DNA from: a virus
DNA length: 64,000 bases
IMG/VR virus record: IMGVR_UViG_3300031703_000002
Coordinates: 1 to 64,000 of that record
Strand: one strand, 5' to 3'
Part shown: positions 3,519 to 48,462 of the stretch, one piece after another
How positions within the stretch are numbered: position 1 is the first letter of the stretch
Layout: every line of letters begins with the position of its first letter
Notes under the pieces: model-generated
The model's database searches: none
What the model was told of the DNA's origin: nothing
The model's input: the letters and a program-made list of their open reading frames with translations, nothing else
Position numbers and translations under genes: made by a program

Positions 3519-3887
3519 ATGAAAACATTTAACAAATACATTGTCGAAGAATCTATTTCTGAAAACGATATGGAACTAATCAACGAAGGACTACAAGAAG
3601 AATGGACTCCGGAATTAGAAGCTAGAATTGATGAAGCACTTGCTTTATTTGATGAGCAATACATGAATGAAGATGGTACATATGACATCGAAAGCTTTAA
3701 CGAAGAAATAACTAATGAAGGATTCTTTGGATCTATTATTGGTGGTCTTACTGGATTTGCACTAGGTAAATCAGTTGGTAAGATGGTTGCTAAAGTCCTT
3801 GGTATACAAAAGGGTATTATTTACGATTTATTAACCTCAAGACTTGTTGGTGCCGCATTAGGTGCTAGTCTTGGTAAAAGAATATAA
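3519..3887 (+). CDS. small CTS-bearing virion protein with Gly/Ala-rich helix
   Basis: The 122-residue protein begins MKTFNKYIVEES, close to the T4 capsid-targeting sequence (MKTYxEFIxE), with a possible gp21-type cleavage after IVE (residues 8-10). Further I/L-x-E sites follow (SISE, LINE). Residues 67-122 form a Gly/Ala-rich region (SIIGGLTGFALGKSVG, LVGAALGASLGKRI), possibly membrane-active helices. It could be an internal head protein delivered with DNA. The function is unknown; packaging is inferred from the N-terminus and the shared motif. Its stop codon abuts the ATG of the resolvase gene. Confidence 0.7.
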   Translation: MKTFNKYIVEESISENDMELINEGLQEEWTPELEARIDEALALFDEQYMNEDGTYDIESFNEEITNEGFFGSIIGGLTGFALGKSVGKMVAKVLGIQKGIIYDLLTSRLVGAALGASLGKRI

Positions 3888-9109: not shown

Positions 9110-9143
9110 AATAATAACTACATACAAAAATAAAAATAATATT

Positions 9144-10730
9144 ATGCAAAAATTAAAATCTTTTGAACAATATGCCACAGAGGCAAAGATTTCAAATGCT
9201 AGAACAGTAGAAGAAGACGCTTCTACAAAAAGATCAAACGAAGCAGAAACTTACAAGAATTTATTATCTGAATTCAAAGTTACATCTGTAAAAGAATTAA
9301 CAGAAGATCAAAGATCTGATTTTTTCATCAAGCTAAGGGATTCAGAAGTTAATGAAGCACTTTCACTTATTGAAGAAGGTACAAGAGGTCAGTTTGGTAA
9401 AATTGACAAAAAAGGTAATATCACTTCAGTTTATACTCATTATGATTCATATCCAGAAAACATTTTACCACTTCTTCAAAAAGATTACAAAAACGGTAAA
9501 AACGTTGACGATGTAATTAAAAGAGGAGATAGTTCTGGTTTAGATGCTATGAATAAAATGAATTTCTATGGAGATAATAGTAAACCATCTACAGGAAGCA
9601 TATCTAATATTTCTAAATATCTAAGAGATGCAAATGATAAAGGTGGAGCAGAATTTGTTTATTTATGGGATGAAGGTAATAAAGAATGGTTAATGGCAGA
9701 TCTTTACGGTAAAGGTCACGATGACGTATATCCTGCATTCGAATCACTTTCAGCTTCAGTAAATGAAGCAATTAAAGTAGAATATAAAAGAGACGCTAAA
9801 AAAGTAGCTACTGTTTATAATAATTTATTCGCTAAGAAATTAACTGATTTAGGTGCAATGTCTAAAGAAGGTAAATTAGGTTGTATTAAATACTTATTTG
9901 AAATGGCAATGGAAGACGCAAACTTTTCAAGAGAAGGTTTCAAGATTTCTAAAAACATTAAAGGATCAATTAAAAGCTTTGAAATTAAAATGTCAGGCTT
10001 AGGTAATTATTTCGTTAAGATTGGTGCAACAACAACTAAGAGAGTATTAGATCAATATTATTCAGATCTTGCAAATGCAGCAAGTTGGGCAGGTATTAGT
10101 ATTGTAGAAGGTACAGCACTTTATTTAGAGAGCATGAAAGAAGAAGCAGCAGGTCAATCATTATTAAATGCATTTAATATGGCATTTGAAGGTAATGAAA
10201 ATATATGCGAAGCAACTGCAGTAATGGATGCAATTGATCCTAAATCTAAAGGACTTGCAAAATTACTAAAGAAGAATAAAGTTACAATGGAAATATTGGA
10301 TATGAACGGACCATCTGGTCATCCAGAAGTTGAACTTACAGGAAAAAGAAAAGATATAACAGCAGTACTCGCAGATGACGAATATGGATGGGATGACGCT
10401 GACTTGGCAGAATACATCGAAGAATCTAAAGTCAATGAAGATATTAAGTGTTCAAATAAAAAAGGACATTCATATAAAGAAATAGACAAAGACGGAACAG
10501 TAGAATGTGAACACTGTGGTTTAAGAAATTCATTATCGGAAGCAGAAATTACTGAAGCTGAAGTTTCTTCAATTGAAGACTTTCAAGAATATGCAACTAC
10601 TGTATTGAAAAAAGCATTCGGTGAAGAATTTGACGAAGCAAAGGCACAAAAGGTAATTGATGGCATTTTAGCTAAATCTGATGGAGATTACGGAACAGCA
10701 GTTGGAATCTTAACAAACTCATTAGGTTAA
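9144..10730 (+). CDS. CTS-bearing putative internal virion protein with zinc-ribbon-like segment
   Basis: The start was placed at 9144, not the in-frame ATG at 9081: the extra 21 codons overlap uvsW and translate the promoter and leader, while 9144 follows an A-rich leader and gives MQKLKSFEQYATEAK, matching the capsid-targeting-like peptide of neighbouring genes. The 528-residue product is acidic and mostly helical. Near the C-terminus a Cys/His cluster (IKCSNKKGHSY, then VECEHCGLRN) could bind zinc, followed by a helical domain. Function is unknown. By analogy with T4 internal proteins it may be packaged in the head and injected. Confidence 0.75.
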   Translation: MQKLKSFEQYATEAKISNARTVEEDASTKRSNEAETYKNLLSEFKVTSVKELTEDQRSDFFIKLRDSEVNEALSLIEEGTRGQFGKIDKKGNITSVYTHYDSYPENILPLLQKDYKNGKNVDDVIKRGDSSGLDAMNKMNFYGDNSKPSTGSISNISKYLRDANDKGGAEFVYLWDEGNKEWLMADLYGKGHDDVYPAFESLSASVNEAIKVEYKRDAKKVATVYNNLFAKKLTDLGAMSKEGKLGCIKYLFEMAMEDANFSREGFKISKNIKGSIKSFEIKMSGLGNYFVKIGATTTKRVLDQYYSDLANAASWAGISIVEGTALYLESMKEEAAGQSLLNAFNMAFEGNENICEATAVMDAIDPKSKGLAKLLKKNKVTMEILDMNGPSGHPEVELTGKRKDITAVLADDEYGWDDADLAEYIEESKVNEDIKCSNKKGHSYKEIDKDGTVECEHCGLRNSLSEAEITEAEVSSIEDFQEYATTVLKKAFGEEFDEAKAQKVIDGILAKSDGDYGTAVGILTNSLG

Positions 10731-10749
10731 AATAATAAAACTCAAAACA

Positions 10750-12033
10750 ATGAAACAATTTCTATCATATCAACAATTTCTAGTTGAAAAAGTAAACGTA
10801 TCTATATTAGACGACTTAATTGTTGAAGGCGGTGCAGCAGGACACATGTCGCATCCTTTCGATGAAAGAGATTTAACATTTGGAGACTTTAAAGAGATCA
10901 TAAGTGCAGGACTTTCTGGTAATTTAACATTCGATGAAGAGCCTACAGAAAAAACGGATGGTCAAAATGTATTCGCTACAGTACAAGACGGAGAAGCTAA
11001 ATTTGCAAGAAACAAAGGTGATATGAAATCTCCAATGTCGTTAGCAGATTTTAAACAGAAGTTTGAAGGACATCCTAGTCCATTAGTACAAGATACATTT
11101 CAATTTGCTGCTGAAGATTTAGCACAAGCATTGATAAAATTACCAAGTAAAGATTTAGAAGTGTTTAACAACGGTAAGAGTTTCATGAATATGGAATTGA
11201 TTTACTCTAAGAACCCTAATGTAATTTACTATGATCGCGATATAATCCAATTTCATGGAATTAAGCACACTGACGGTGAAGGTAATATAATCGGTGACGA
11301 TAACAAATATGCATCTTCAATTGCTAAAGCTCTACAAAAAGTTAAGGCAGATGTTGGTAATACATTTACTGTAATTCCACCCCAAATCGTTAAGATAGGA
11401 AAGGATATTGATTTTGAAAAGAACAAAGATAAATTCATCAAAAAAGTAGAAGACTTAAAAGCTGTATATAAATTAACAGATGCTGATGAAGTTTCTAGAT
11501 ATCACGAAATGTGGTGGAGAGATCAAATAGAATCTAATTTCCCAGATATATCGCAAGATCAAAAAGAAGGTCTATTATTAAGATGGGCATATGGTGATAA
11601 AAAGACGCTTAATTTAAGATCTCTTGATAAAGATCTTGGAAAAGATAAAGCAGCAGCCATTAAGAAATTTGACAAGGAAGATGTTAAAAAGAAATACAAA
11701 GAAAACATTAGACCTTTCGAGGATTTATTCTTAGAACTTGGAAGTGTTATTCTTAAAAATGTAAGTAACTTTGTTGCTGCAAATCCAAGTGATGAAATGC
11801 AAAGGTTACATACTCAAATTAGAACAGAGGCTGACAAGGTTAAAAAGGGTGGAGATATTAAACAAATAGAGAAAGTTGTTTCAGAACTTGAAAGACTTGA
11901 ACGAATCGGAGGTATTGAATCTATTATACCAACTGAAGGTATTGTTTTCATATATAAAGGTAAAACAATGAAACTTACAGGAACATATGCTGCGATAAAT
12001 CAGCTAATGGGTATTATAAAATACGGTAGATAA
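10750..12033 (+). CDS. nucleotidyltransferase of the DNA/RNA ligase superfamily with CTS-like N-terminus
   Basis: The 427-residue protein begins MKQFLSYQQFLVEK, fitting the CTS pattern with a possible cleavage after LVE. Its core shows ligase-superfamily motifs: motif I EKTDGQNV with the presumptive adenylated Lys68 (K-x-D-G), a motif III-like MNMELIY (about 146-152), motif IV EGIVFIY (E396) and motif V MKLTG (K408). Such enzymes form a lysine-AMP intermediate and join or cap nucleic acid ends. The substrate is unknown. The next gene also starts with a ligase-like domain. A packaged ligase would be unusual; the packaging is inference from the N-terminus. Confidence 0.7.
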   Translation: MKQFLSYQQFLVEKVNVSILDDLIVEGGAAGHMSHPFDERDLTFGDFKEIISAGLSGNLTFDEEPTEKTDGQNVFATVQDGEAKFARNKGDMKSPMSLADFKQKFEGHPSPLVQDTFQFAAEDLAQALIKLPSKDLEVFNNGKSFMNMELIYSKNPNVIYYDRDIIQFHGIKHTDGEGNIIGDDNKYASSIAKALQKVKADVGNTFTVIPPQIVKIGKDIDFEKNKDKFIKKVEDLKAVYKLTDADEVSRYHEMWWRDQIESNFPDISQDQKEGLLLRWAYGDKKTLNLRSLDKDLGKDKAAAIKKFDKEDVKKKYKENIRPFEDLFLELGSVILKNVSNFVAANPSDEMQRLHTQIRTEADKVKKGGDIKQIEKVVSELERLERIGGIESIIPTEGIVFIYKGKTMKLTGTYAAINQLMGIIKYGR

Positions 12034-12080
12034 TTAAGATACATAATCTAGATTATTAAATACTGAATACAAAAAACACT

Positions 12081-13928
12081 ATGGCTTTACAAAACTTAAG
12101 AACGTATTATCAATCATCTAACATCAATGACTTCGTGTCAATGTTAGATATTCCATGTGTCGTATCAGAAAAGATACAAGCGTCATCTTTCCATGTTAAA
12201 AGAACTAAAACAGGGTTTGAATACTTCAAAAGTGGTTCAAAACATGCAATGGACAGAGTAGACAGGACGATGATTAAATACTATGAAAGTGGTATTAAGT
12301 ATTTCAATACTATATTAACAGAATTGACTGAAGATATGCCATTGGATTGGAAGTTTGGATTTGATTATATGTTAGATAATAAAACGGTAGATATTGAATA
12401 CGATGCTTTACCCAAAAATCATTTAATATTAACACATATTCAAATATTAAAACCAAATGATTTAACACAAGTCAAAAAGGTTATTAGAGATCCTGTTATT
12501 TTAAATAAATGGGCAGATCTATTAGGAGCACAAAGACCTCCTGTTATATTCCAAGGTAAACTACAATCTAATCAAAAGGATGATCTACTTAATCTTCTAG
12601 AAATATCAGATAAAGATTTTGAAATCAAATACGGATCACAATCTTTTACAAGAACAATATACAACATATTCAACAATGGACTTAATACTCCAGCGTTAAA
12701 TCATTCATTAGATAATGACATTGATGGTTTAATAATTAATTTCTCTGATGGTAAAGGCATGAAAAGCTTTAAATTGGAGAGATTTGATAGAAAGCCACAA
12801 GAAGCAAGAAAACCATCTGATATGTACCAACTTTCAATTTTGGATTTGGTAGAATTTATTACTGCGTTTGACATTACTGCTATTAAGTTAGAAGAAGAAG
12901 AGGCTGATTCAAGATACATTGAAATAATCTCTAATATATTTAATGCGTATGTTGAAAAGAACGCAACAAAATATGTCGGCACTAATTTCAACTCTGCAGA
13001 TTTTTCAGAAAGGAAAGGTTTTGAACTTAATAAAGTATTCATAAAAAATGAAAAGACTTTATCATTAGTTCAGAATGAAATCTTATCAGAATTATTTAAA
13101 ATTGCTTTAGGCAGTTTTAGAAAAACAAGACACAAAGAAACTGACATCATTAATAAAGATTTAATGAATCAGATCAATTCAATAGTAGATGCTATTGAAA
13201 CGTCAGTTATGGCGAAAACCAATGAAAATGATGTTATGAACTTTAAATCATATTTAGTTAATCAAAAACTGCAGTATACAGAAACTCCAATATTAGAAGC
13301 ATTGACAGTTAATTATCCAGAACAAGGTAAAACACCAGTTAACATGTTTGTTGGTAGATTTCAACCGTTTACATTAGGACATATTAAAGTTATAGAAACA
13401 ATTCACAAACAGAATGGATTTCCTGTTGTAATATTCTTAGTTAAGTCTAAGACTAAAAAAGCAGAAGATGCATTTAAGAGACCATTCGACGAAGAAACAC
13501 AAGTCGAAATGATTAAGAATCTAAAAAGCAAATATCCTATAGAAGAAGTATTTGTAATACCGACAGGCGGAATTGATCACATGTTTAATGCAATGAGACC
13601 TAAATACGAACCAGTATTATGGGGAACTGGAAGTGATAGAATGAAAACTTATGGATTCCAAGTAAATAAAGATTCTTATAGAGAAGATCTTGGCGTTAGA
13701 CCTGATTTCGGATTATATGAAATACCAAGAACAGGTAAAAACATTTCAGCAACACAGGTTAGAAACGCAATGTTAGATGACGATGAGAAGTTGTTTAAGA
13801 AGCTTACACCGAAACCAATACATAACATGTATAAAGAATTAAAAGCTAAATTAGAAGAGTCCATGGGAGTCGTAACAGAATCAGAAGACGACACTTTGAC
13901 ATTTGATGAATTTATCAAAAATATATAA
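12081..13928 (+). CDS. fusion of ligase-like domain and NMN adenylyltransferase/cytidylyltransferase-like domain
   Basis: The 615-residue protein has two enzyme modules. The N-terminal half resembles RNA/DNA ligase nucleotidyltransferases: motif I SEKIQASSF (K31), FGFDYM as motif III, DGLIINF (about 215-221) and SFKLERF with K231. The C-terminal third (from about 420) is an HIGH-superfamily nucleotidyltransferase: VGRFQPFTLGH (TLGH at 431-434) and a late NISATQVRNAM like the ISSTxxR motif of NadM-type NMN adenylyltransferases. It could use or make NAD, or charge nucleic acid ends. 'Cytitidyltransferase' genes are known in marine T4-like phages; I do not know a record of this domain pairing. 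A C-terminal acidic tail follows. Confidence 0.75.
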   Translation: MALQNLRTYYQSSNINDFVSMLDIPCVVSEKIQASSFHVKRTKTGFEYFKSGSKHAMDRVDRTMIKYYESGIKYFNTILTELTEDMPLDWKFGFDYMLDNKTVDIEYDALPKNHLILTHIQILKPNDLTQVKKVIRDPVILNKWADLLGAQRPPVIFQGKLQSNQKDDLLNLLEISDKDFEIKYGSQSFTRTIYNIFNNGLNTPALNHSLDNDIDGLIINFSDGKGMKSFKLERFDRKPQEARKPSDMYQLSILDLVEFITAFDITAIKLEEEEADSRYIEIISNIFNAYVEKNATKYVGTNFNSADFSERKGFELNKVFIKNEKTLSLVQNEILSELFKIALGSFRKTRHKETDIINKDLMNQINSIVDAIETSVMAKTNENDVMNFKSYLVNQKLQYTETPILEALTVNYPEQGKTPVNMFVGRFQPFTLGHIKVIETIHKQNGFPVVIFLVKSKTKKAEDAFKRPFDEETQVEMIKNLKSKYPIEEVFVIPTGGIDHMFNAMRPKYEPVLWGTGSDRMKTYGFQVNKDSYREDLGVRPDFGLYEIPRTGKNISATQVRNAMLDDDEKLFKKLTPKPIHNMYKELKAKLEESMGVVTESEDDTLTFDEFIKNI

Positions 13929-13947
13929 TAAAACAAACAAATTAAAA

Positions 13948-15393
13948 ATGGATACATTTGACAATCACATAAATGAAAATTTCGAAGTACATTATTCTGA
14001 TGGGATAAGAGCTGCAAAAAAGTTTAAATCAGAAAAAGATGCAAGAGCATTCATGTCTGATGCTATAGAAAACAAAAAAGGTTTACAAGAAATTGCAATT
14101 TACAAAGCAGGTTCTGGATTCCATTCTACTGCAGATACTAAGGCAGTTATTTCTTTTTGGGGAGAAGGTTCTTATTTAGATAACGTTTCTAAAAAAGATT
14201 CTAAATTAGCAGCTAAGAAATTAGAAGAGTCATTAACTGAAAGACACATCACAGTAAAACGAAAGTATACTGAAAATCACCCAGCAGTTAAAGTTGGTAA
14301 AGCAGCTAAAATCAGAAACAAAGTTTTAGAAGCTATCAAAGATGGTAAAATTACCAAAGAAGAATTCAATACGATTTTAAGAGAAATGACTACGGATTCT
14401 GGCAGATGGATGAGAAGAAACTCTACTTATTTAAATGTAAGCGAAGATGGAATTACACTTTCTAAAACAGGTAAAAGAGTACTTAACGAATTAACTCCGG
14501 TTATAAATACACCAGATATTAATGAAAAGGCAAGTGCTTTTAAAATAGCAAATGCAAATGCAGAAGAAATATTCGGAGAATTCGGAATAGCAACATTATC
14601 ATATGATGAGATTGCAAGAGTAATAAACATAAAGAGAGCTGACAAATTAGCCAAAAAATACGGTGAAGACAGTTTTATGGCATTAACCGAATTAGATATG
14701 GAAGAGCTTTTAAACAAGAATCCAAAATTAGTAATAGAAAATAAACAAAACAATAACATGAAAACAAATTTTATATTTGAAAGCTTTAAAGAATTCACAG
14801 AATCTTTAAACGAGGCTACAAGAAGTCGTTTTAACATCAAGTCGTTAAAAATTGGAAAAAGACAATTTCCATTTCCAGGTATTAAAGAAACAGTAAAGTC
14901 ATTGTGGAATGAAGAAGTTGAAGATTATAAGAATCCAACTAGTATGGATTATATGAATAATCCTTCAGATTTAAAAAAGGTAAAATCAGCAATTTTAAAA
15001 GGTGTTAATGCTAACCTAAAGGAACAGATTCGTGCTGAATGGACAAATGGAGGCGAGGAGCTAGAACTTTCATTAGAATTGAAACATCGTGATTTCATTA
15101 GAGTTACATTAAGAACTGGTCGATTCCAAGAATATTGGAAAGATATGCTTAAAGCCGAAGTAATTTCTACTAGATATTCAGGTAGAGGTAACTATCCAGA
15201 AACAACTGATGTTGGAAAGGGCTCAGTTTCACCAAATTCAATTATAATATATTTAAGAGAAGATGGCGAATATGGTAAGCAGATAAACCACATGCACCGC
15301 GCAGTATCGGACATTCTTGATGTATCGGAATCGGTTATTGATTTTTACAATGGTATACCTCAGATTGCAATAATTGGCTCAGAATCAGATTAA
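13948..15393 (+). CDS. CTS protein with a second internal CTS (probable fusion of two genes)
   Basis: The start was placed at 13948 (after an A-rich leader, giving MDTFDNHINENFE) rather than the upstream ATG at 13903 inside the previous gene. The frame is open for 481 codons but contains, at codon 271 (ATG 14758), a complete second CTS-like N-terminus, MKTNFIFESFKEFTESLNE. The codons before it (ENKQNNN) are a translated A-rich leader like those before separate genes. The first part is a basic helical protein; the second, about 212 residues, is an alpha/beta domain. Internal initiation at 14758 or proteolysis after LNE could yield two products. Functions are unknown. Confidence 0.7.
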   Translation: MDTFDNHINENFEVHYSDGIRAAKKFKSEKDARAFMSDAIENKKGLQEIAIYKAGSGFHSTADTKAVISFWGEGSYLDNVSKKDSKLAAKKLEESLTERHITVKRKYTENHPAVKVGKAAKIRNKVLEAIKDGKITKEEFNTILREMTTDSGRWMRRNSTYLNVSEDGITLSKTGKRVLNELTPVINTPDINEKASAFKIANANAEEIFGEFGIATLSYDEIARVINIKRADKLAKKYGEDSFMALTELDMEELLNKNPKLVIENKQNNNMKTNFIFESFKEFTESLNEATRSRFNIKSLKIGKRQFPFPGIKETVKSLWNEEVEDYKNPTSMDYMNNPSDLKKVKSAILKGVNANLKEQIRAEWTNGGEELELSLELKHRDFIRVTLRTGRFQEYWKDMLKAEVISTRYSGRGNYPETTDVGKGSVSPNSIIIYLREDGEYGKQINHMHRAVSDILDVSESVIDFYNGIPQIAIIGSESD

Positions 15394-15434
15394 AATCATA
15401 TTAAAAACAAAACAATAAACAAAACAATATAAAC

Positions 15435-16427
15435 ATGAAACACAAATTTTTATTCGAATCATTCGAAGAATTCACAGAATCTTTAAATGAATCATTTGCT
15501 TCAGCTATATTAGCGGGCATATTAACAGGTAAAGGCTCTAAAGCTGACAAATCATTAACTAAGGCATTTTATGGTAAAACTAAATTAGCGTTAGACAAAG
15601 TACAAGATGAAGATATTATAGTGACTGATCCAATGACAGCATATAAAGAGAAGTCTGATAACGCAATCGTATTTTATATTTCAGATAATCAAAAAGAAAA
15701 TCCATATGCACCAAGCGACGCATACGAAAGTAGCAAAGTTATACCAGGTGGAGGTTATTTATTAGCACTTGCATCGGGAGATAATAGTTTTTATGAAAAC
15801 ACATGGAAAAGAGGATTGATTAGAACAGGAAATAATCCAGCAGATTCCATAGGTATTTCTAAGAAGTATAAAGGTTGGGATGCAACGGGACTTTATAATG
15901 TTAAAAGAATTGCAGAAGTTGCTGATAGAGCAATTGTAATCAATTTAACATTATTACAACAAAAATATTCAACAGCGAACATAAGAGCTGAAAGAAATTC
16001 TGCTAAATCAGGTGCAATCGCATTCAAATCTGATAAAGATTTCAAATCTGATAACATGACAAGATACCAAGAAATTTTAGCAACTAAAGCTTCAAAATTA
16101 CCATTAGACAAAATGGTTGCAGATGCAATTGATTCATTAGCAGAACAAATCAAATCTGGATTAAAGTCTGGTGAAAAAACAAGATATGGTGATCCGATGA
16201 TTGGTAAATCATCAAAAGGTAAAGAAGTTAAATTAAGAGATGCTTCTCAGCACATGAACAATATATTAGATGACTACTCTAGATATGCTGATTATGTTAG
16301 ACAAGAAGAAGATGAAATCAAAGCATATGGTAAAGCTTCTAATTGGTATGGTAAATCTGCAAAAGAATATGCAAAAAGATGTGCTGATAATATCAAGAAA
16401 ATTGAAGACATGACATACGCTTGGTAA
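15435..16427 (+). CDS. CTS-bearing protein, paralogue of the next gene
   Basis: The 330-residue protein begins MKHKFLFESFEEFTESLNES, a CTS-like peptide with a cleavage-type LNE. Residues after this (FASAILAGILTG) and a central block (QKYSTANIRAERNSAKSGA, then AFKSDKDF and RYQEIL) are closely matched in the following gene, so the two arose by tandem duplication. It is basic and has no membrane segment. Function is unknown; it is likely a head-internal protein. It follows a leader rich in AAACAATA repeats. Confidence 0.75.
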   Translation: MKHKFLFESFEEFTESLNESFASAILAGILTGKGSKADKSLTKAFYGKTKLALDKVQDEDIIVTDPMTAYKEKSDNAIVFYISDNQKENPYAPSDAYESSKVIPGGGYLLALASGDNSFYENTWKRGLIRTGNNPADSIGISKKYKGWDATGLYNVKRIAEVADRAIVINLTLLQQKYSTANIRAERNSAKSGAIAFKSDKDFKSDNMTRYQEILATKASKLPLDKMVADAIDSLAEQIKSGLKSGEKTRYGDPMIGKSSKGKEVKLRDASQHMNNILDDYSRYADYVRQEEDEIKAYGKASNWYGKSAKEYAKRCADNIKKIEDMTYAW

Positions 16428-16459
16428 TAAAACAATAATAAAACAATAATAAAACAGAT

Positions 16460-17509
16460 ATGAAACACATTAAATTATTTGAACAATTCATAAACGAATC
16501 AGATTCATCATTAAACGAAGCATTTGCTTCTACTAAATTAGCAAATATATTAACAGGTGCTAATAAATTACCAGAAGGTCTTCCAGCTGCATTTTACAAA
16601 ATGACTAAACTTAAATTAGATAAAATAAAAGATGAAGATATCATCGAATTGGATCCAATGGTTGCTAGGAGAGAAAAACGAGCAAACGCAGTATACATGT
16701 ACTTTGTAACAGATGAAAAAGAAAACGATTACCATATACAAAATCCATATGATAAAGATGAAGAAATATCAATATACAACGGTGGTATTATTCCAGCAAA
16801 TACTTTATTGGCAATTACTAATGTAGATAATAAATGGATGAATATTGATTGGGCTAAAGATAATAAATACACACGACATGGTTCTAACCTTAAATATGCA
16901 ACTATTGTACCTGATGTTGATGGACATCAAGAACTTCAACAATCTAAAAGGAAAGATTCAGCAGGAATCGACAAAGGAAATACAGGTCTAGATACTGTTA
17001 TGAAAGTAGCAAGAACTGCAGATATATGCTATTGTCTTGATTTAGATATTCTTACTGCAAGATATTCTACGGTAAACCTTAAAGATGAAAGAAAAGCTGC
17101 TCAGAAAGGAGCAACTGCATTCATATCAGATAAAGACTTTAGAAAACAAACACATGCAAGATATCAAGATATCATAGCAGATCGAGCTCTTGCAATGCCA
17201 CTTGATAAGAAAGTTAAAGAAGCGACAGAATTAATAGGTGAGATTATTGCAAACGCAAATGCTCGCGGACATAGAGATTCGAAAGGTGATATTCTGATAG
17301 GTACTGGTAGCCATAAATATAAAATATCAGGTATTTTGCAACACATGGACTTTCTATTGAATAGATTTTCAACATATGTACATTACACTGATCTAGATGC
17401 GCACGAATATAACGCTGGTTATGATATGGCATATCATAAAAGAAATATAAAAGATTGTGCCAAGAAGGTTTGGGATAGTATTAAAGACATTAAAAGATAC
17501 CAAAAATAA
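16460..17509 (+). CDS. CTS-bearing protein, tandem paralogue of the previous gene
   Basis: The 349-residue protein begins MKHIKLFEQFINESDSSLNE, containing two I/L-x-E sites. It shares with its upstream neighbour the FASTKLANILTG segment after the CTS, the DEDIIELDPM block, and ARYSTVNLKDERKAAQKGA with FISDKDF and RYQDI. It diverges in the middle and at the C-terminus. The shared residues around R-Y-S-T and S-D-K-D-F are candidates for an active or binding site, but no enzyme family is recognised. Basic composition fits DNA-associated internal proteins. Confidence 0.75.
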   Translation: MKHIKLFEQFINESDSSLNEAFASTKLANILTGANKLPEGLPAAFYKMTKLKLDKIKDEDIIELDPMVARREKRANAVYMYFVTDEKENDYHIQNPYDKDEEISIYNGGIIPANTLLAITNVDNKWMNIDWAKDNKYTRHGSNLKYATIVPDVDGHQELQQSKRKDSAGIDKGNTGLDTVMKVARTADICYCLDLDILTARYSTVNLKDERKAAQKGATAFISDKDFRKQTHARYQDIIADRALAMPLDKKVKEATELIGEIIANANARGHRDSKGDILIGTGSHKYKISGILQHMDFLLNRFSTYVHYTDLDAHEYNAGYDMAYHKRNIKDCAKKVWDSIKDIKRYQK

Positions 17510-17516
17510 AACAGTT

Positions 17517-17837
17517 ATGAAACGCACTAAATTATACGAGGAATTTATCTCAAAGAAAACAGTAACAGAAGGTAGAAAAACAGTAGATCCTTCTACATTC
17601 GGAGATGATAAATTATCATATGACGATCAATTTAGAGGAAACACTTCATTGGCACAATCTCTTTCTTCAGATCTAGGATTTGATCCTAAAAAACCATGGT
17701 CAGAAGGAATTGGATTTGATAGTACAGATATGTACGCTTCCGGTAAAAAAGATGGAACTGTTTTATCAAATGCATTATCTAGTAAGTTCACATATGCTGA
17801 GTTATTAGACGCAGCTAAAAAGTTTTTAGAAGCTTAA
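17517..17837 (+). CDS. small CTS-bearing protein
   Basis: The start at 17517 was chosen over the in-frame ATG at 17457, which overlaps the previous gene; it gives MKRTKLYEEFISKKTVTEG, matching the CTS pattern with a possible cut after VTE. The remaining residues (106 in total) are polar, with DPSTFGDDKLSYDDQFRGN and a C-terminal helix. It sits one base before the next gene. It is likely an internal head protein; the function is unknown. Confidence 0.68.
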   Translation: MKRTKLYEEFISKKTVTEGRKTVDPSTFGDDKLSYDDQFRGNTSLAQSLSSDLGFDPKKPWSEGIGFDSTDMYASGKKDGTVLSNALSSKFTYAELLDAAKKFLEA

Positions 17838-17838
17838 T

Positions 17839-18657
17839 ATGTCAGATATTAGCAAAAAATTAACAGAAACAGTTTCAACCGCAGCAATGTCAGGTATGGG
17901 TCCAGTAGAATTACCGGGCAACGGAACATTAGGTTCTGGTGATGTACCAGCTGGTAGTGGCGATGCCGAAGAAGAATATAAAAAGAAAAAGAAAAGAATG
18001 AAACACTTAAAAACATTAGAATCTTTCATATCAGAAGGAGTAAATCTTAAACAATCTCATTTGTCATCTGAAGATTATCAAAAAGCTAAAAAACTTAAAG
18101 GTTTTGATGAAGCTGATTGGGAATGGAACGGAGATAAAGGACTTTATTCTAAAGTAAACGAATCTAGAGTTGATAAAACTTCAGATCAAGATAGAATTTA
18201 TTATGACTTTCTATTAACACTAAGAGATTCTGGTAAAACCAATATGTTTGGTGCAGCTCCATATTTACAAAAAGAGTTTGATCTTAGTAAAAGCGAAGCA
18301 AGAAATGTATTAGCAGAATGGATGAAATCATTTAATGAATCTAAAGTTAATGAAGCAGATGCTCAAAAACCAAGAGGCATAGATCAATTTGCAGAAGATA
18401 TGGAATCTGATAAGATGAATCCAGAAATTCATTTAGCTACATTTAGTGGTAAATCATTCAAAGCACAATCAACTGATAAAACATGGGAAGACGGAGTACC
18501 TGTAACTAAGAACTTCACAAGAGGTGGTTATAAGTCTACGAGTCCTAAAGGAGAACACTATATAATTGAAACAGATAGATTCTGGTATTTCGTTATAGGA
18601 AGAATGTGGTTCGCTGTTAAAAGAGCAGATTACGGAACACCTCCATTTGAGTATTAA
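17839..18657 (+). CDS. CTS-containing protein with a 53-residue N-terminal extension
   Basis: The 272-residue frame starts with MSDISKKLTETVSTAAM, a Gly/Pro-rich stretch (GSGDVPAGSGDAEEEY) and a Lys run (KKKKKR). At codon 54 (ATG 17998) comes a CTS-like start, MKHLKTLESFISEG. The rest holds a helical domain (about 115-170) and a C-terminal beta-rich domain ending RADYGTPPFEY. Either the extension is a true part of the protein or a separate short peptide fused to a CTS gene, with 17998 as a second start. A strong terminator follows, making this the last gene of the block. Confidence 0.68.
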   Translation: MSDISKKLTETVSTAAMSGMGPVELPGNGTLGSGDVPAGSGDAEEEYKKKKKRMKHLKTLESFISEGVNLKQSHLSSEDYQKAKKLKGFDEADWEWNGDKGLYSKVNESRVDKTSDQDRIYYDFLLTLRDSGKTNMFGAAPYLQKEFDLSKSEARNVLAEWMKSFNESKVNEADAQKPRGIDQFAEDMESDKMNPEIHLATFSGKSFKAQSTDKTWEDGVPVTKNFTRGGYKSTSPKGEHYIIETDRFWYFVIGRMWFAVKRADYGTPPFEY

Positions 18658-18698
18658 ATCAAAATTATCAACTGTTCGTAAGTTTTACGAAAATAATT

Positions 18699-18728: not shown

Positions 18729-18768
18729 GTTTATATTAGTAGTATAATAAAACAAGTGATATTGTTAT

Positions 18769-18830: not shown

Positions 18831-18844
18831 AATAAACACGAGAC

Positions 18845-29096: not shown

Positions 29097-29152
29097 ACAA
29101 AACAAAACAATTATGAAACACGTAAAATTATTTGAAGCATTTGCTTCAACAG
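29097..29152 (+). repeat. leader-plus-CTS repeat, copy 1
   Basis: The A-rich leader and the first dozen codons (MKHVKLFEAFAST) are nearly identical at DNA level to copies at 29850 and 30187. The three are direct repeats able to recombine. Confidence 0.75.
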
Positions 29153-29424
29153 TAAACGAAGCAAAATCTTATAAGAAAGAATTCAAAGAGATCAAAGATT
29201 ACTTCCATAATGTAACGCTAGACGGAAACCAAATAACAGTATGGGATTTTGAAGAAAACAAAGACTACGCAGTGGTATTCACATGGTATCCTGAAGAAGA
29301 AACAGCAAATGGTGAAGACCAAAGGATTGCAAGGTCTGATGATGGCGACAAAATTAAAACAGCAGAAGACTTCATAGATTTCGTTAATGATCATGCGCCA
29401 GAAGAAGAAGAAAACTGGGACTAA
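29113..29424 (+). CDS. small acidic CTS-bearing protein
   Basis: The 103-residue protein begins MKHVKLFEAFASTVNEAK, CTS-like with a possible cut after VNE. The rest is acidic (WDFEENKDYAVVF; a HAPEEEENWD end) with a small alpha/beta fold ending in an acidic tail. Related sequence patterns appear in the C-terminal half of the next gene (W-D, Y-x-x-x-F and the D-F-I/T terminal helix), so they are likely relatives. It is probably a small packaged or core protein; the function is unknown. Confidence 0.7.
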   Translation: MKHVKLFEAFASTVNEAKSYKKEFKEIKDYFHNVTLDGNQITVWDFEENKDYAVVFTWYPEEETANGEDQRIARSDDGDKIKTAEDFIDFVNDHAPEEEENWD

Positions 29425-29444: not shown

Positions 29445-30173
29445 ATGGCAAAAGCATTCGCAGTAACAGAAAATACACCAGATTATGGAGTAATACACTT
29501 GTATTTAAATCAAGGTGCAGCTAAAAAGAAATTAGCAGAACTAGAAAAAGCACAAAAAGAAGATCCTGATTTTGATGATGATGAAGTTGAATTTGAAATG
29601 AACGATTTTAAATTAACAGATGGTACAGCATATGGTCATAAATCAGAAGGATCTATAGAATACGGAGATGCTCCTGAAGATTCATTTGAAGAAAGAAAAG
29701 AAGATGCAGCTGAATATTCTGAATGGGGCGCAGTTGTCGATTTAGCAAAACACAAGTATGTTCAAATTTACGTAGGATCTGCAATAGAGGTTGCACCATC
29801 AAAGGCATCAGTTTTTATTTATGAAGCAGATGAAATATCAGAACATGTTAAACAAAACAAAACAATTATGAAACACGTAAAATTATTCGAAGCGTTTGTT
29901 GCAAATATCAACGAAGCTAAAGTAAACCTTAAGAAAGAATTTAAAAACTTAGAAAATCAATATGATGCATCATTCGATGGTGATATTATATCAATTGTTG
30001 GTGAAAATCCATTTGATGATGGCAACGAATACACATTCAATTGGGATGGTACTGCAGTTTGGTCAGACGAAGATAACTACGGTGGTCAAGAATGGTCAAG
30101 TGAAGTAACATCAGTTGATGATTTCACATCTTTAATAGATGGTGGTTCAATTGACGGCGGAGACTGGCAATAA
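29445..30173 (+). CDS. fused protein: N-terminal unknown domain plus internal CTS module
   Basis: The 242-codon frame has an acidic N-terminal domain (MAKAFAVTENTPDYG to about residue 135) without CTS. It then runs through a translated A-rich leader (KQNKTI) into a second start, ATG 29868, MKHVKLFEAFVANINEAK, followed by an acidic domain like that of the preceding gene. A one-base change near 29850 would restore a TAA before 29868, so this looks like two genes joined by a small indel, or one gene with an internal start. A sequencing error in the A-rich stretch must also be considered. Confidence 0.65.
   Translation: MAKAFAVTENTPDYGVIHLYLNQGAAKKKLAELEKAQKEDPDFDDDEVEFEMNDFKLTDGTAYGHKSEGSIEYGDAPEDSFEERKEDAAEYSEWGAVVDLAKHKYVQIYVGSAIEVAPSKASVFIYEADEISEHVKQNKTIMKHVKLFEAFVANINEAKVNLKKEFKNLENQYDASFDGDIISIVGENPFDDGNEYTFNWDGTAVWSDEDNYGGQEWSSEVTSVDDFTSLIDGGSIDGGDWQ
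29850..29906 (+). repeat. leader-plus-CTS repeat, copy 2 (inside an ORF)
   Basis: This segment matches copy 1 at 29097 through the leader and the MKHVKLFEAF codons, but here it is read through in frame from the upstream gene. Confidence 0.7.
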
Positions 30174-30186
30174 TACAAAATAATAC

Positions 30187-30243
30187 AAAACAAAACAAAA
30201 TAATTATGAAACATGTAAAATTATTTGAAGCATTTGCTTCAAC
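30187..30243 (+). repeat. leader-plus-CTS repeat, copy 3
   Basis: The leader with AAAACAAAACAAAATAATT and the codons for MKHVKLFEAFAST match copy 1 almost exactly. Confidence 0.75.
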
Positions 30244-30490
30244 ATTAAACGAGAAATATTCATCATCAGACATTAAAAAACTTAGAGTGTTTACTGATGA
30301 GGTTGCAGATGACATTTATGATTCATATGAAGATGAATTCATGGATGGTAAATTAGACGAAGACGATTTTAGCCAAGAAGTAATGTTTGATTACATATCT
30401 GATTGGGGTGAAAATAATGAAATGACAGTTAAAGAAATCATTGCTGATTTTTACTGGAAAGATTTACGAGATGAATTAGGTCTTAGATAA
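30206..30490 (+). CDS. small acidic CTS-bearing protein
   Basis: The 94-residue protein begins MKHVKLFEAFASTLNEKY, with LNE as possible cleavage site. The remainder is acidic and helical (VFTDEVADDIYDSYEDEF; KEIIADFYWKDLRDEL). After removal of the peptide a product of about 78 residues would remain. It is the last gene before a strong terminator. The function is unknown; like its neighbours it is a candidate internal head protein. Confidence 0.7.
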   Translation: MKHVKLFEAFASTLNEKYSSSDIKKLRVFTDEVADDIYDSYEDEFMDGKLDEDDFSQEVMFDYISDWGENNEMTVKEIIADFYWKDLRDELGLR

Positions 30491-42892: not shown

Positions 42893-44485
42893 ATGGCAGG
42901 ATTTAACGATAGAAACGGACCACTAAGTAACGGATCAAAACCCTTTAGCATTTCAAATGCTTTGAAGTCTTTATCCTCATTCGGTATGCGATATGACGAC
43001 TTAGTATTAAGACAGTCACAAGCAATCGGCCCAATGGAAGCAGAAATTGGCTATGGTCAAATGAATCCATTTGGCGTTGACAACGATGACATCTATGGTG
43101 CATTCGCAGCAATGTCAATGACAGATACTAATCTTAGATCTAATATACCGTTCTTTGATACAGCATATGAAGGTAAAAGAGATGAACTTAGAAAATTCTC
43201 ACTTAATGATGAGGTTGAAGATATCTTAGATATTCTTTGTGATGAATCAATAGTATACGATAATAAAAACTTTTTCTGTTACCCAGAAATATTAGGATTG
43301 GATGTTTCAGACGACGTTGATAAAGATCTTAATAAATATTTTAGACAACTGTATCACTATTTTGGGTTTAACTCAGATCAATCAGCATGGTACTTCTTTA
43401 GAAAATTCTTAATTGATGGATATTTAGCATTTGAGATTATTTATTCACCAGATCAACAAGAGATTATAGGATTTAAAGAAATAGATCCAATTACACTTAT
43501 TCCTGGATATAACCACGAAGATGGTAAGAAAGTTTGGGTACAATATAAAGATGATCCAGTTAAAGAAAGAAAGTTATATGATTCTCAAATAATCTATATT
43601 TCATATTCTTCAATAACAACAACATCAAGAGTTTCATATATTGAGAGATTAACAAGATCATTCAACTTGTTAAGAATAATGGAACACACAAGAGTTATAT
43701 GGGCAGTAACTAACGCTTCATTTAGAATGAAGTTTGTTATACCTGTCGGTGGTAAATCTAAGACTAGAGCAAAGCAATCGCTTTCTCAGTTAATGAACTC
43801 TTATAAAGAATCAGTTGATTTTGATTGGGAATCAGGAACACTAGCAACAGATGGTAAACCAATGTTACAATTTAGTAAAGAGTATTGGCTGCCTTCTAAA
43901 GATGGTGAATCACCAGAAATTGAAACATTAAACAGTGAAGGACCAGATCTTTCAGATACAGAAGCACTTAAATACTTCTCAGACAAATTAAAACACGTTT
44001 CAAAAATACCTTACTCTAGATTCTTATATGAAGATGGTGGTGGAGATTTCAATCTTGCTGCTGATGGTATGATTAGAGATGAAATTAAGTTTGGTAAATT
44101 TATCAAACGTTTAAGATCTACATTCATGGAAATTTTATCTAAGCCTTTGTTTATTCAAATGTGTCTTAAATATCCTGAATTCACAAACGATCCACAATTC
44201 AAATCACAAGTCGCATTACGATTTAATGAAGAAAATGTATTCTCAGAATTAAAAGACATGGAATTAATGGAGAAACGTTTAGACTTTATTGCTACAATGA
44301 GAGACTCATTAATGACAACAAATCAAGAAACAATGGAAGAAGAATATTACTTCGATCAAGAATACTTAGTTAAGAAATATCTTAAATTAAGTGATGATGA
44401 AATTAGAGGTAATGAAGCAGCCAAATCTAAATTAAAGAAAACGACTGCTGAAGAGCCAGAGGCTGAAGATCCATTCGCAATGTAA
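42893..44485 (+). CDS. gp20: portal protein gp20
   Basis: At 530 residues it matches T4 gp20 (524). Typical portal segments are seen: DEVEDILDILCDESIVYD, WYFFRKFLIDGYLAFEIIY, RIMEHTRVIWAVTNASFRM and PYSRFLYEDGGGDFNLAADG. The dodecameric portal nucleates head assembly and is the channel for DNA packaging by gp17. The gene order gp20, small acidic core protein, gp21, gp22, gp23 copies T4 (20-67-68-21-22-23). Confidence 0.93.
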   Translation: MAGFNDRNGPLSNGSKPFSISNALKSLSSFGMRYDDLVLRQSQAIGPMEAEIGYGQMNPFGVDNDDIYGAFAAMSMTDTNLRSNIPFFDTAYEGKRDELRKFSLNDEVEDILDILCDESIVYDNKNFFCYPEILGLDVSDDVDKDLNKYFRQLYHYFGFNSDQSAWYFFRKFLIDGYLAFEIIYSPDQQEIIGFKEIDPITLIPGYNHEDGKKVWVQYKDDPVKERKLYDSQIIYISYSSITTTSRVSYIERLTRSFNLLRIMEHTRVIWAVTNASFRMKFVIPVGGKSKTRAKQSLSQLMNSYKESVDFDWESGTLATDGKPMLQFSKEYWLPSKDGESPEIETLNSEGPDLSDTEALKYFSDKLKHVSKIPYSRFLYEDGGGDFNLAADGMIRDEIKFGKFIKRLRSTFMEILSKPLFIQMCLKYPEFTNDPQFKSQVALRFNEENVFSELKDMELMEKRLDFIATMRDSLMTTNQETMEEEYYFDQEYLVKKYLKLSDDEIRGNEAAKSKLKKTTAEEPEAEDPFAM

Positions 44486-44512: not shown

Positions 44513-44851
44513 ATGAAAATTATTAAAACATTTGAAGACTTCATTACAGAAGATGCAATGAGAGCCGGAGAAGATTCCAAGATAATTATTGACGATATTA
44601 AATTAGATTCAGGTTCTACTATAAAATCTGCAGAGATTTTAGGAGCTGTAACAGCATCAATGACTGACGATGAATTTAAACAATATTTTTATGATAGTTA
44701 TGGTGAAAACGCTTTCGCAGAAGGTGAAATTGACCAATTAGTTAAGATATACAATGATATAGCTGCAGAAGAACTAGAAGCTGAAAAAGAAGCTGAAAAG
44801 GAAGGCGGAGAAGGCGAAGAGGATGAAGAGGATCCATTAGCAGGATTGTAA
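44513..44851 (+). CDS. prohead core protein (gp67/gp68-like) with CTS
   Basis: The 112-residue protein begins MKIIKTFEDFITED, CTS-like with a gp21-type cut after ITE, and ends in a strongly acidic tail (KEGGEGEEDEEDPLAGL). T4 gp67 is also a small acidic core protein encoded between gp20 and gp21, which supports the call. In T4 such core proteins are cut to small peptides during head maturation. That the N-terminus here is a core-targeting peptide supports a head role for the wider CTS family in this window. Confidence 0.7.
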   Translation: MKIIKTFEDFITEDAMRAGEDSKIIIDDIKLDSGSTIKSAEILGAVTASMTDDEFKQYFYDSYGENAFAEGEIDQLVKIYNDIAAEELEAEKEAEKEGGEGEEDEEDPLAGL

Positions 44852-44907: not shown

Positions 44908-46968
44908 ATGAAAAATACTAACGATTTATTAATCGTCGAGATGTCTTCATCAGCTCTAAGTGTAACAACTTCAGAGAACAAAGATTACATTCTTGAAGGT
45001 ATTTTTGGTCAAATCGATCAAAAAAACAAAAACAACCGTATATACACTGAGTCGGAGTATGTTCCACAAATTGAAGCATTACAAGCTAAAATTAAAGCTA
45101 GTAAGTTATTGGGCGAATTAGATCATCCTGCACAATTTGACATTTCTTTAAAGAATGTATCACATATCATTGAAGAACTTGTATATGACAAAGATAGTAA
45201 AGAAGTAAGAGGACGTATCAAATTATTAGATACAGACGCTGGAAGACAAGCTAAAGCTTTAGTAGATGCTGGTGTTCCTTTACAGATTTCATCTAGAGCT
45301 GCAGGTGCAGTTGAATCTAACGGACAAGTAAAGATTAAACAATTATTTACTTATGATCTAGTTGCTGATCCAGGTTTTGAAAACGCAGAGTTAAAGAGAG
45401 TTAACGAAACGTATGGTTATTCAAACGCAGGAAATTTAGCAATTTACGAAATGAATGGCACAGAAGCTATTGATAACCAACCTATTAAAAACACAAACAC
45501 ACAAATAAAAGAAAATAAAAACATGGCAGAATTTGTAAAATCCGAGGATTTCAATAAGTACTCTGAGTATTTGGCGAATGAGATCAAGACATTAAAAGAA
45601 TCTATCGAAACTAAAAATGAAGAAGTTTCAGAAGATAAAACAGTACAAAACTTGAAAGATCATAGTGATCACGTTGTAGAAAACGTTAATCAATTAACAG
45701 AATACGTAGAATACATCGCTGGTAAATTAGACGATAACATTCAATATTCTGAACATGTTGCTGAGAAAACAGATCAAAGTATTTCATATGCTGAATCTTT
45801 AGCAGAAACATTAGATAACAATATCTCTTATACAGAGCATGTTGCTGAAGCAGTTTCTAAAGTTAAAGACTTCGCTAATTATTTAGCAGAAGCACATAAC
45901 GAAGGAAGTACTTCTCACGAATCTTTATTAGAGTATGTTGAATACTTAAAAGAAAACTTACAATCAGTTTCTGAATATGCAGAGTATATTGCAGAATCAT
46001 TAAACGAAACAGTTATTGAAGTACCAGTTAACGCTGAAGCTGAAGAAACTGAAGAGGAAGAAGTTGAAGCAGCTGATAAAGTTGAAGGTGAAGAAGTTGC
46101 TAAAGAAGTAGCAGAAGCTGAAGCTCCTGCAAAAGACGCTGACGAAGCTGAAGAAACTGAAGAAATCGAAAACATCGGTGATAATTCTGAAGAAGGCGCA
46201 GTAGCTGCTGATTCTGATAAAGCTGGTAAAGAAGTTGAAGAAATCGAAGGTGAAGAAGTTGAAGCAGGAGATAATTCAAAAGAAGGTGATACTAAAGGTG
46301 AAGTAAATGGAGAAGACGCTGAAGATTTAGAATCTGACGCAATTAAATCTGATTCAGAAATTGAAGCAGAAACCAAAGCAGCTAAAGCTGGTGAAGGTGA
46401 AGAAGAAACTGAAGGTGAAGAAGGAGCATTAGATCCATTAGAATCTTACAAAAGCGAAATCTCATCTAAATTAGATAAATTAGTAGAAAATGCTACAGCA
46501 AAAGAAAATGAAAATCCTTCATTCTTTAGAGTTGTATCATCTACGACAAGAGAAAAGTATAACGCATTAAATGAATCAGCTAAAACAGAAGTTAGAAATA
46601 CAGTTTCTCAAAGAGGCTTTATGACTGAATCTGAAATCTCATCATTAATGAATAACGCAGAGCTTATTGTTGAAAACAAAGGTGCACAACCATTGTTTAT
46701 TACTGCAATGCCAGCGGAATACAGCGCAGCATGGGAAAACTTATCTGAATCTAAACAGAATCAAATAACAGCACAAGCTAAATACCACTCATTAAAAACT
46801 GAATACCAAGTTGCTAATTTCTGGCAAACTAGAGACTTAAGAGATACTAAAGTTGAAATGGAAAAAGTTGCAATGGTAACAGAATCTAAGGATGAAGCGC
46901 CTAAATCTACCATCGGTTACGATGTTACAGAAATGGCTGAAGCATTCAAAAAGAGATTTAACAAATAA
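44908..46968 (+). CDS. gp21-gp22: prohead protease gp21 fused in frame to scaffold protein gp22
   Basis: One 686-codon frame carries both genes. Residues 1-165 are the gp21-type serine protease: LLGELDHPAQF with catalytic His73, and LQISSRAAGAV with Ser128/Ser129, then YDLVADPGF. After a linker that translates an A-rich leader (TQIKENKN) comes an internal ATG at 45523 (codon 206, MAEFVKSEDFNKY). The rest is scaffold-like: a 14-residue coiled-coil repeat (Y-x-E-x-x-A-E-x-x-D-x-x-I-x, about 235-320), an acidic Glu/Ala-rich middle and a helical C-terminus. Internal initiation would give free scaffold in excess, as with lambda gpC/Nu3. Confidence 0.85.
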   Translation: MKNTNDLLIVEMSSSALSVTTSENKDYILEGIFGQIDQKNKNNRIYTESEYVPQIEALQAKIKASKLLGELDHPAQFDISLKNVSHIIEELVYDKDSKEVRGRIKLLDTDAGRQAKALVDAGVPLQISSRAAGAVESNGQVKIKQLFTYDLVADPGFENAELKRVNETYGYSNAGNLAIYEMNGTEAIDNQPIKNTNTQIKENKNMAEFVKSEDFNKYSEYLANEIKTLKESIETKNEEVSEDKTVQNLKDHSDHVVENVNQLTEYVEYIAGKLDDNIQYSEHVAEKTDQSISYAESLAETLDNNISYTEHVAEAVSKVKDFANYLAEAHNEGSTSHESLLEYVEYLKENLQSVSEYAEYIAESLNETVIEVPVNAEAEETEEEEVEAADKVEGEEVAKEVAEAEAPAKDADEAEETEEIENIGDNSEEGAVAADSDKAGKEVEEIEGEEVEAGDNSKEGDTKGEVNGEDAEDLESDAIKSDSEIEAETKAAKAGEGEEETEGEEGALDPLESYKSEISSKLDKLVENATAKENENPSFFRVVSSTTREKYNALNESAKTEVRNTVSQRGFMTESEISSLMNNAELIVENKGAQPLFITAMPAEYSAAWENLSESKQNQITAQAKYHSLKTEYQVANFWQTRDLRDTKVEMEKVAMVTESKDEAPKSTIGYDVTEMAEAFKKRFNK

Positions 46969-47082: not shown

Positions 47083-48462
47083 ATGAATTTATTAAACGAA
47101 GCTGAGATCAAAAATACATGGGCACCGATAATCTCGGAAGCTACAGGTATTAACGAATCTAGCAAATTAGCATGGATGTCGACTTACTGTCACAACCATA
47201 AACTTTACGAAGACGCGAACATCATGTCTTTAAACCCTAACATGAACTTAGCAGGTATGGGTGCAGTATCTTTCCCTTCAGCAGTATCTAACGGTGCAGC
47301 AGGTGGTGAAAATGGTTCTGGTGACAAGTCTCCGACTTTATTACCATTAGCAATGCAAGTAGCTGCTCAAACTATCGGTTTAGACTTAGTACCAGTAGTA
47401 CCAATGGCAGGACCAATGGGATTATTGTCTTACTTAGACTTTACTTACGAAGGTGGAAAAGTTGACGGAAACGTTACACCTACTTATATTAAAGGTGCAG
47501 TTGATGCAGTTGCTGCAGGTAACGATGTATTAGTTGGAACTTCTAGAATTGATGGAAAATCAATTATCAAAATTGTTGATGCATTAGACGGTGAAGCAAA
47601 TATAGCTGCAAGATATGCAGGTGCTGAATTAGTTAAAGCTTTAGAAGATCACATTCCTGGATTCTCAGGTGCTGATGCAAACGATAAGCCAATGTCAAGA
47701 GATCTTGGTGAATCTACTCCTGATAAAGTAATGGGTCTTTCTTTATTCTCTAAAAGTGTTGCTGCTGAAACTTTCCAAGTTGCTGCTGCAGTTACAAGAG
47801 AGCAAGTACAAGATTTAAAACAATTCGGTGTTGATGCTGTTGCTCAAGTAGAAGCAGTTTTAACTAACGAATTAACTCAATCTATCAATACTCACATTTT
47901 ATCTAAAATGAGATCTATTGCTGGTGAAGGTACTTTAGCTGGAAACTTAGAATTAGTTTACACTCAAGGTGGAAACACTTACGGTGATGTTAATAGAAGA
48001 ATCTTAACACACGTTTTAGCCGCTGCAAACTTAATTGCTAACAGAGGTAGAAGAGGTGCTGGTAACTTCGCTGTAGTTGATGCAAAAGTTGCTTCAGCTT
48101 TACAAGGTGTTGCAGGATTTGTATCTAACCCAATGGCTAACACATTTAACCAAGTTGCAGGAGCAATCTACCCAGTAGGTTCTGTTGCTGGAATCAATGT
48201 TTACACTGATCCTAACATGGCTTTCGAAGGTGTTACTGCTGGAGGTAAAACTACACATGAAGTATTAGTTGGTAGAAAAGGTGATGGTAACGGTGCTGGA
48301 TTAATTTTCATGCCTTACTTAATGGCTGAATCAGTTCAAATGATCGCAGAAGGAACAATGGCTCCGAAAGTAGCTGTTAAATCTAGATACGCATTAGTTG
48401 AAGCTGGATTCCACCCAGGTACACAATACGAAAAATTCTATGTTGAAGGTTTAGCACTATAA
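47083..48462 (+). CDS. gp23: major capsid protein gp23
   Basis: The 459-residue protein follows gp22 and has gp23 features: an N-terminal arm (NTWAPIISEATGINESS) with gp21-type sites, a segment SLNPNMNLAGMGAVSFPSA, LLPLAMQVAAQTIGLDLVPV, the long helix region with REQVQDLKQFGVDAVAQ, and RRILTHVLAAANLIANRGR. It forms the hexamers of the head shell. T4 gp23 has 521 residues. Codon use is biased to GCT/GTT and similar, as in a highly expressed gene, and it has its own late promoter and terminator. Confidence 0.92.
   Translation: MNLLNEAEIKNTWAPIISEATGINESSKLAWMSTYCHNHKLYEDANIMSLNPNMNLAGMGAVSFPSAVSNGAAGGENGSGDKSPTLLPLAMQVAAQTIGLDLVPVVPMAGPMGLLSYLDFTYEGGKVDGNVTPTYIKGAVDAVAAGNDVLVGTSRIDGKSIIKIVDALDGEANIAARYAGAELVKALEDHIPGFSGADANDKPMSRDLGESTPDKVMGLSLFSKSVAAETFQVAAAVTREQVQDLKQFGVDAVAQVEAVLTNELTQSINTHILSKMRSIAGEGTLAGNLELVYTQGGNTYGDVNRRILTHVLAAANLIANRGRRGAGNFAVVDAKVASALQGVAGFVSNPMANTFNQVAGAIYPVGSVAGINVYTDPNMAFEGVTAGGKTTHEVLVGRKGDGNGAGLIFMPYLMAESVQMIAEGTMAPKVAVKSRYALVEAGFHPGTQYEKFYVEGLAL

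Follow-up and report, generated by a model that had tools for sequence, protein, structure and literature searches.

The stretch analysed here (64,000 nucleotides, positions 1 to 64,000 of the IMG/VR virus record IMGVR_UViG_3300031703_000002; the window below is this whole stretch) contains many genes whose products begin with nearly the same short peptide, here called the tag. In all probability the tag is a capsid-targeting sequence of the T4 kind, and the proteins carrying it would be packaged, cleaved by the S77 prohead protease and injected with the DNA. The kind of signal is already known from T4; its scale, its cargo, and its C-terminal and internal forms are new. The proteins that T4-like phages are known to inject besides DNA amount to few proteins from few isolates.

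Fourteen copies of the tag had been listed in an earlier sequence-only reading, and all of them translate as claimed (Table 1). A strict form of the motif has 8 and 9 ATG-started matches in the window with two regular expressions, against 0.05 expected as the mean over order-1 shuffles of the window. The tags are 10-19 residues long. Eleven of the 14 are the start of their own gene and three (14758, 17998 and 29868) begin at an in-frame internal methionine; for 17517 and 9144 longer starts are possible. Two tags lack the M-K start present in the other 12 (9144 and 13948), [FY]E is missing in 3519, 10750 and 13948, and 17998 has LE instead.

Across the 1,189 genes of eight relatives that are independent of one another, the first 20 residues contain the core [FY][EQN]xF[ILV]xE at 32 times its density in the rest of the proteins. 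Of the matches, 55 are N-terminal and 24 internal, and several of the internal ones begin at an in-frame methionine.

The 80-kb virus record to which the window belongs is 99.99% identical across its whole length to a 150-kb contig of the same virus (G001). About six further tagged genes were found in this contig outside the window, one of them encoding a GNAT protein and one an ATP-grasp protein. The number of packaged proteins, first put at about a dozen, is if anything low, as about 20 are tagged in this virus.

The tagged proteins had also been described as unrelated. At least ten unrelated families remain, but 15435 and 16460 are paralogues (37% identity), and thus the tagged proteins are not all unrelated. 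In addition, 29113, 29868 and 30206 have up to about 43 N-terminal residues in common. Such cases are what one would expect if all tagged proteins were diverged copies of one protein of which only the start has been kept. The probability of this is close to nil, since the cargo folds are unrelated (ferritin, GNAT, NUDIX, zeta-toxin, Tad3, 2H phosphoesterase, ATP-grasp) and one and the same domain, Tad3, exists in both tagged and untagged form. Common descent of the whole set is refuted by these observations.

Similarity to the T4 sequence and distribution of the tag

In the T4 internal protein IPIII, which begins with MKTYQEFIAE, targeting depends on residues 4 and 7, and processing requires residues 8 and 10 (PMC9026906). 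The tag matches this sequence residue by residue at the targeting and processing positions, and the distances between F/Y7, F10 and E13 of the tag are those between T4 residues 4, 7 and 10. The resemblance to T4 proposed from the sequence is thus borne out. Among 150 canonical tags residue 7 is F or Y, residue 10 is F and residue 13 is E in 150/150 each, residue 11 is I, L or V in 148/150, and K2, K5, F10 and E13 are unchanging. As these tags were chosen by a pattern that already demands most of these residues, the independent support comes from alignments. Indeed, F10 is invariant in an alignment of 143 cluster representatives, where the mean column identity is 4% and the consensus MKHIKLFExFxNE is followed by almost nothing.

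The tag of 3519 equals the T4 sequence in length and register. Most other tags differ from that of IPIII in having 2-6 extra residues (HIKL type) before the aromatic residue, e.g. MKHIKLFEQFINE. Some have 3-9 extra residues after F (MKHVKLFEAFASTVNE), as does T4 IPI, MKTFKEFTSTTTPVSTITE, where the spacer before xxE is long, as in 29113 and 30206. The similarity to the T4 internal proteins thus comprises the MK start, the aromatic-x-x-F part, the [ILV]-x-E processing site, and the T4-type protease and portal. On the other hand, in T4 the sequence is found on three small proteins, and here on about 20 per virus and in more than 150 clusters, including enzymes and anti-defence domains. A C-terminal tag and tags within polyproteins are features of this lineage and not of the T4 internal proteins. 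With a related pattern, 100 kb of T4 yielded ipII and ipIII only, and 50 kb of a cyanophage yielded no convincing tag.

Three other systems are comparable. T4 Alt, an injected ADP-ribosyltransferase, is another enzyme that is packaged together with the DNA and that gp21 cleaves, reportedly at both ends (PMC9026906), but it begins with MELITELFDE, which is not an MK-F-x-x-F start. A search of the tagged proteins revealed no clear ADP-ribosyltransferase; a candidate with YHAT- and YHFT-like starts (in G004) was rejected, as it had only a sub-threshold match to Tpt1/KptA (E=0.023). The Dar proteins of P1 are anti-defence proteins loaded into the head via an N-terminal signal, as in DarB (PMC9024508). 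They have no common consensus, whereas here one consensus covers all cargo. In the phiKZ-like phages and SPN3US many head proteins are cut after x-E by a prohead protease (PMC5694885), but the propeptides mostly exceed 100 residues, the specificity is A-X-E, and there is no common short tag.

Tagged proteins were found throughout ten long relatives. The DNA pattern of the canonical tag (degenerate DNA for MKH-x-K-x-[FY]-E-x-F-x-NE) matches at least 120 viral stretches but not one of 84,980 genomes of bacteria and archaea. Of the 17 tag-bearing records of at least 100 kb that were tested, 14 encode the S77 protease. The 326 distinct tagged proteins form 151 clusters, 102 of them singletons; these come from a small sample, and the number of clusters is thus at least 151. 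No description of so expanded a tag was found in the literature searched, the searches being limited.

It is highly improbable that the common start functions as DNA or RNA (a translation enhancer or a recombination cassette) and not as a protein signal. AAA-rich early codons are enriched at residues 2 and 5, and there are a few repeats of 85-100 bp with 84-92% identity, at least one of which spans two tag starts. However, 77 tag peptides are encoded by 140 different DNA 39-mers, and codon use is near background at tag residues 7, 9, 10, 12 and 13. Such free synonymous variation at conserved residues means that selection acts on the peptide and not on the DNA. The tag DNA is hardly more similar within genomes (identity 0.764) than between genomes (0.749), so it is not homogenised within genomes, and the upstream DNA is unrelated; a DNA cassette or recombination product was rejected on these grounds.

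Cargo and anti-defence domains

Few tagged proteins are recognised by Pfam. These are Tad3 (anti-Thoeris), an Acb1-like 2H phosphoesterase (Acb1 being an anti-CBASS protein), ferritin, GNAT, NUDIX, a zeta-toxin-like kinase, NMN adenylyltransferase, ATP-grasp and AAA proteins.

The tagged Tad3 (PF25185, E=4.8e-22) scores 78.4 bits at L273:1372-2118, with a cut-off of 27. The virus of the window has an untagged Tad3 of its own, outside the window (72804-73400 of its record, G000; L082:8804-9397), which scores 75.3 bits with the same cut-off and is 44% identical to the tagged Tad3 of other contigs. This untagged protein and that of Vibrio phage phi50-12 align to the tagged Tad3 only past its first 40 or so residues. 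That a single domain can be both tagged and untagged speaks most clearly for the tag being a module attached to domains.

The Acb1-like proteins (PF23474, cut-off 27) score 27.3 bits at L273:2435-2971 and 29.4 bits at L260:2293-2832, and both HxT motifs are present (HCT and HMT). Two relatives are below the Pfam cut-off and PF13563 scores alike, so the assignment to 2H phosphoesterases is sure and that to Acb1 only likely. Six Acb1-like loci in the set examined are tagged. In L273 and L274 the tagged Tad3 and the tagged Acb1-like gene are neighbours, with one short tagged gene between them. Homologues of the same domains in other phages (Tad3 in Vibrio phage phi50-12, Acb1 in Maribacter phage Molly) have no tag and start directly with the domain. 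Two Acb1-like homologues from huge phages begin with KKYLEFMKE and KKYKQFIKE, a looser form of the tag.

In T4, ipI is adjoined by gene 57B, which has been described as Acb1 (L276:33591-34410). The start of 57B, MMEFKDFSTG, faintly resembles the tag.

The following course of events can be proposed. Late in infection, the tagged proteins would bind the prohead core via the aromatic-x-x-F part, and the S77 prohead protease would cut them after [ILV]-x-E. The mature proteins would remain inside the head and pass into the next host along with the DNA. One address would thus serve a large, fast-changing cargo set that includes homologues of anti-defence proteins, and these could act before any phage gene is expressed. 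There are precedents in T4: IPIII acts in the cytoplasm, is required on E. coli strain ECOR17 and works there without its tag (PMC9391042), and IPI blocks a restriction enzyme (PMC9026906). Injected effectors had been suggested before; the tagged Tad3 and Acb1-like proteins of the relatives make this suggestion specific. As the tag is carried by many unrelated proteins, likely inhibitors of immunity among them, the lineage, a group of uncultured T4-like phages, probably injects a pre-made arsenal together with its DNA. We lean towards a broader version as well, in which an exchangeable head address, N-terminal, C-terminal or between polyprotein domains, loads some 10-20 proteins per virion, including inhibitors of Thoeris and of the cyclic-oligonucleotide-based antiphage signalling system (CBASS), as a counter-defence arsenal expressed in advance.

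If the tag is an address label, the cargo can be read from sequence, and there are more than 150 clusters of candidate injected proteins, most without a known relative. Two anti-defence folds, Tad3 and Acb1-like, among the few recognisable cargo proteins suggest that the unrecognised cargo is enriched for inhibitors of early-acting immunity. The tag could then be used as bait for new anti-defence and host-takeover proteins in metagenomes, and as a packaging signal, perhaps at either terminus, it could serve in engineering protein-loaded phages of marine bacteria.

Head module, upstream element and alternative roles

The genome encodes an S77 protease of the gp21 type and a T4-type head (Table 1). 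The nearest annotated relatives of the capsid protein are those of Prevotella Lak phages and Tenacibaculum phage PTm1. In nearly all relatives the protease has LLIVE near its own N-terminus, which recalls the LIE-9 site of T4 gp21 (PMC9026906). The capsid proteins of the lineage keep xNE near the start; the N-terminus in 47083 contains NLLNEAE. The tag of the small core-position protein 44513 is kept in all homologues among the matches listed.

All 18 copies of the element GATATATA in the record are on the coding strand, and the same bias is seen in all relatives. The element lies just 5' of the portal, protease, capsid, sheath and tube genes and of the tagged genes 3519, 9144, 29113, 44513 and 48593; besides the copies in Table 1, examples are at 42858, 44876, 46975, 58802 and 61702. 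It is found at most 70 bases upstream of 19 of 74 tagged genes and of 145 of 1086 others (Fisher P=0.006). This placement points to a candidate late-promoter element of the lineage.

One possibility is that the tag is a docking peptide for some other phage factor (a membrane site, a replication body or a chaperone), and that the proteins act late in the same cell, unpackaged. Some of the cargo would indeed be useful in replication (ligase-like, NMN adenylyltransferase, NUDIX). However, the core-position protein between portal and protease is tagged, exactly the T4 targeting and processing residues recur, the glutamate after [ILV]-x is invariant, as for prohead proteases, and the element upstream of the capsid genes tends to lie upstream of tagged genes as well. 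We consider docking quite improbable.

Another possibility is that the tag does target the prohead, but that the proteins are scaffold or core fillers that set the size or shape of the head and are mostly not injected effectors. The genes 44513 and 48593, which lie on either side of the protease and capsid genes and are kept in relatives, would fit this role, and T4 internal proteins also affect head assembly (PMC9026906). On the other hand, most tagged families are rare and variable, as the proportion of singletons indicates, and many have enzyme or anti-defence folds. This role for the set as a whole is unlikely.

Several observations weigh against packaging and injection. The core-position protein had been called gp67-like. 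It is indeed a small acidic tagged protein between the portal and the S77 protease, but T4 gp67 itself does not carry this N-terminus, and the label therefore rests on position and acidity. In Tenacibaculum phage PTm1, the nearest annotated isolate, no convincing tag was seen in the 100 kb scanned. Extra internal protease sites do not mark the cargo, [ILV]NE[AS] occurring 0.43 versus 0.30 times per 1000 residues with no clear enrichment in tagged proteins. Several tags sit inside longer open reading frames (ORFs). A copy of GATATATA also lies upstream of nrdB (26308), so the element is not exclusive to late genes. Finally, the lineage is known from sequence alone and has no known isolate.

C-terminal and internal tags and products of the tagged genes

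The list of tags was incomplete in one respect, as the gene 12081-13928, located between 10750 and 13948, had been missed. Its product ends with VVTE-SEDD-TLTFDEFIKNI, which we propose to be a mirror tag with the putative cleavage site first and the address last. A terminus of the form [ML]T[FY]xxF is present in 19/19 full-length members of this family (homologues about 50-80% identical), most of which have xxE shortly before it. When ORF C-termini were scanned, this family accounted for 16 of 19 matches, versus one at offsets of 10-30 residues. T4 Alt is reportedly cut at the C-terminus as well (PMC9026906).

In relatives, the domains of 13948 and 15435 are fused in polyproteins, where an internal Met-tag follows an A-rich, Asn/Lys-rich linker. 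Internal tags may thus release polyprotein domains through the protease or mark internal starts.

Table 1. Tagged genes, tags and head genes of the window (all on the + strand; aa, amino acids)
Coordinates	Tag	Product or feature	GATATATA
3519..3887	MKTFNKYIVE, then ES	122-aa protein, C-terminal glycine-zipper segment	3507
9144..10730	MQKLKSFEQYATE	528-aa protein, opens the tagged cluster, lineage-wide family	9098
10750..12033	MKQFLSYQQFLVE	RNA/DNA-ligase-like nucleotidyltransferase	
12081..13928	C-terminal mirror tag (proposed): VVTE, then SEDDTLTFDEFIKNI	ligase-like and C-terminal NMN-adenylyltransferase-like protein, no N-terminal tag	
13866..13925	GVVTESEDDTLTFDEFIKNI	predicted C-terminal tag	
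13948..15393	MDTFDNHINE; internal Met-tag at 14758, MKTNFIFESFKEFTESLNE	481-aa protein	
15435..16427	MKHKFLFESFEEFTESLNE	330-aa protein, equals the C-terminal domain of long polyproteins in relatives	
16460..17509	MKHIKLFEQFINE	paralogue of 15435	
17517..17837	MKRTKLYEEFISKKTVTE	106-aa protein	
17839..18657	internal Met-tag at 17998, MKHLKTLESFISE, kept in relatives	272-aa ORF	
29113..29424	MKHVKLFEAFASTVNE	103-aa protein	29072
29445..30173	internal Met-tag at 29868, MKHVKLFEAFVANINE	242-aa ORF	
30206..30490	MKHVKLFEAFASTLNE	94-aa protein	
42893..44485		T4-type portal protein (phrog_213, E=5e-74)	
44513..44851	MKIIKTFEDFITE	112-aa core-position protein, acidic C-terminus, between portal and protease	44501
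44908..46968		S77 prohead protease, long scaffold-like C-terminal region (PF03420, E=1.9e-11; phrog_207)	
47083..48462		major capsid protein (phrog_138)	
48593..50161	MKLKSKLKLYEQFVNE	522-aa protein, 3' of the capsid gene	48549

No near relative of positions 9000-19000 of the window was found among 50,697 phage records. In the AlphaFold model of 15435, residues 1-19 are disordered or of low confidence and a helix-rich fold begins at about residue 24. This fold has no match among PDB or viral structures, and the family was not found in deposited phages. The glycine-zipper part of 3519 is kept as far as the Prevotella Lak phages, and its product is possibly a membrane-active ejected protein. Elsewhere in the lineage, the gene L193:5667-6224 encodes a ferritin-like protein with a tag (MKTFDNFRKKDSVNE), which may be packaged and serve in iron storage or DNA protection.

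In the family of 10750, F10, E13 and a second xxE site, E26, are invariant in 21 homologues down to 29% identity. The ligase motifs I (KxDG), IV (EGxVF) and V (KxTG) are conserved, with K68TDG71, E396, G397, F400, K408 and T410 invariant. In the AlphaFold model residues 9-32 are disordered or of low confidence, and the confident part begins shortly after the tag. Nearly all of the top 40 Foldseek matches of the model are RNA/DNA ligases or capping enzymes, although the matches are weak (best E=0.016); a sequence profile of 10750 matched no ligase in PDB. In Microcystis phage Mel-JY01 an NMN-adenylyltransferase-like domain is fused ahead of a ligase domain of the 10750 type. This fusion hints that the 12081 and 10750 types have a common role in NAD or RNA repair.

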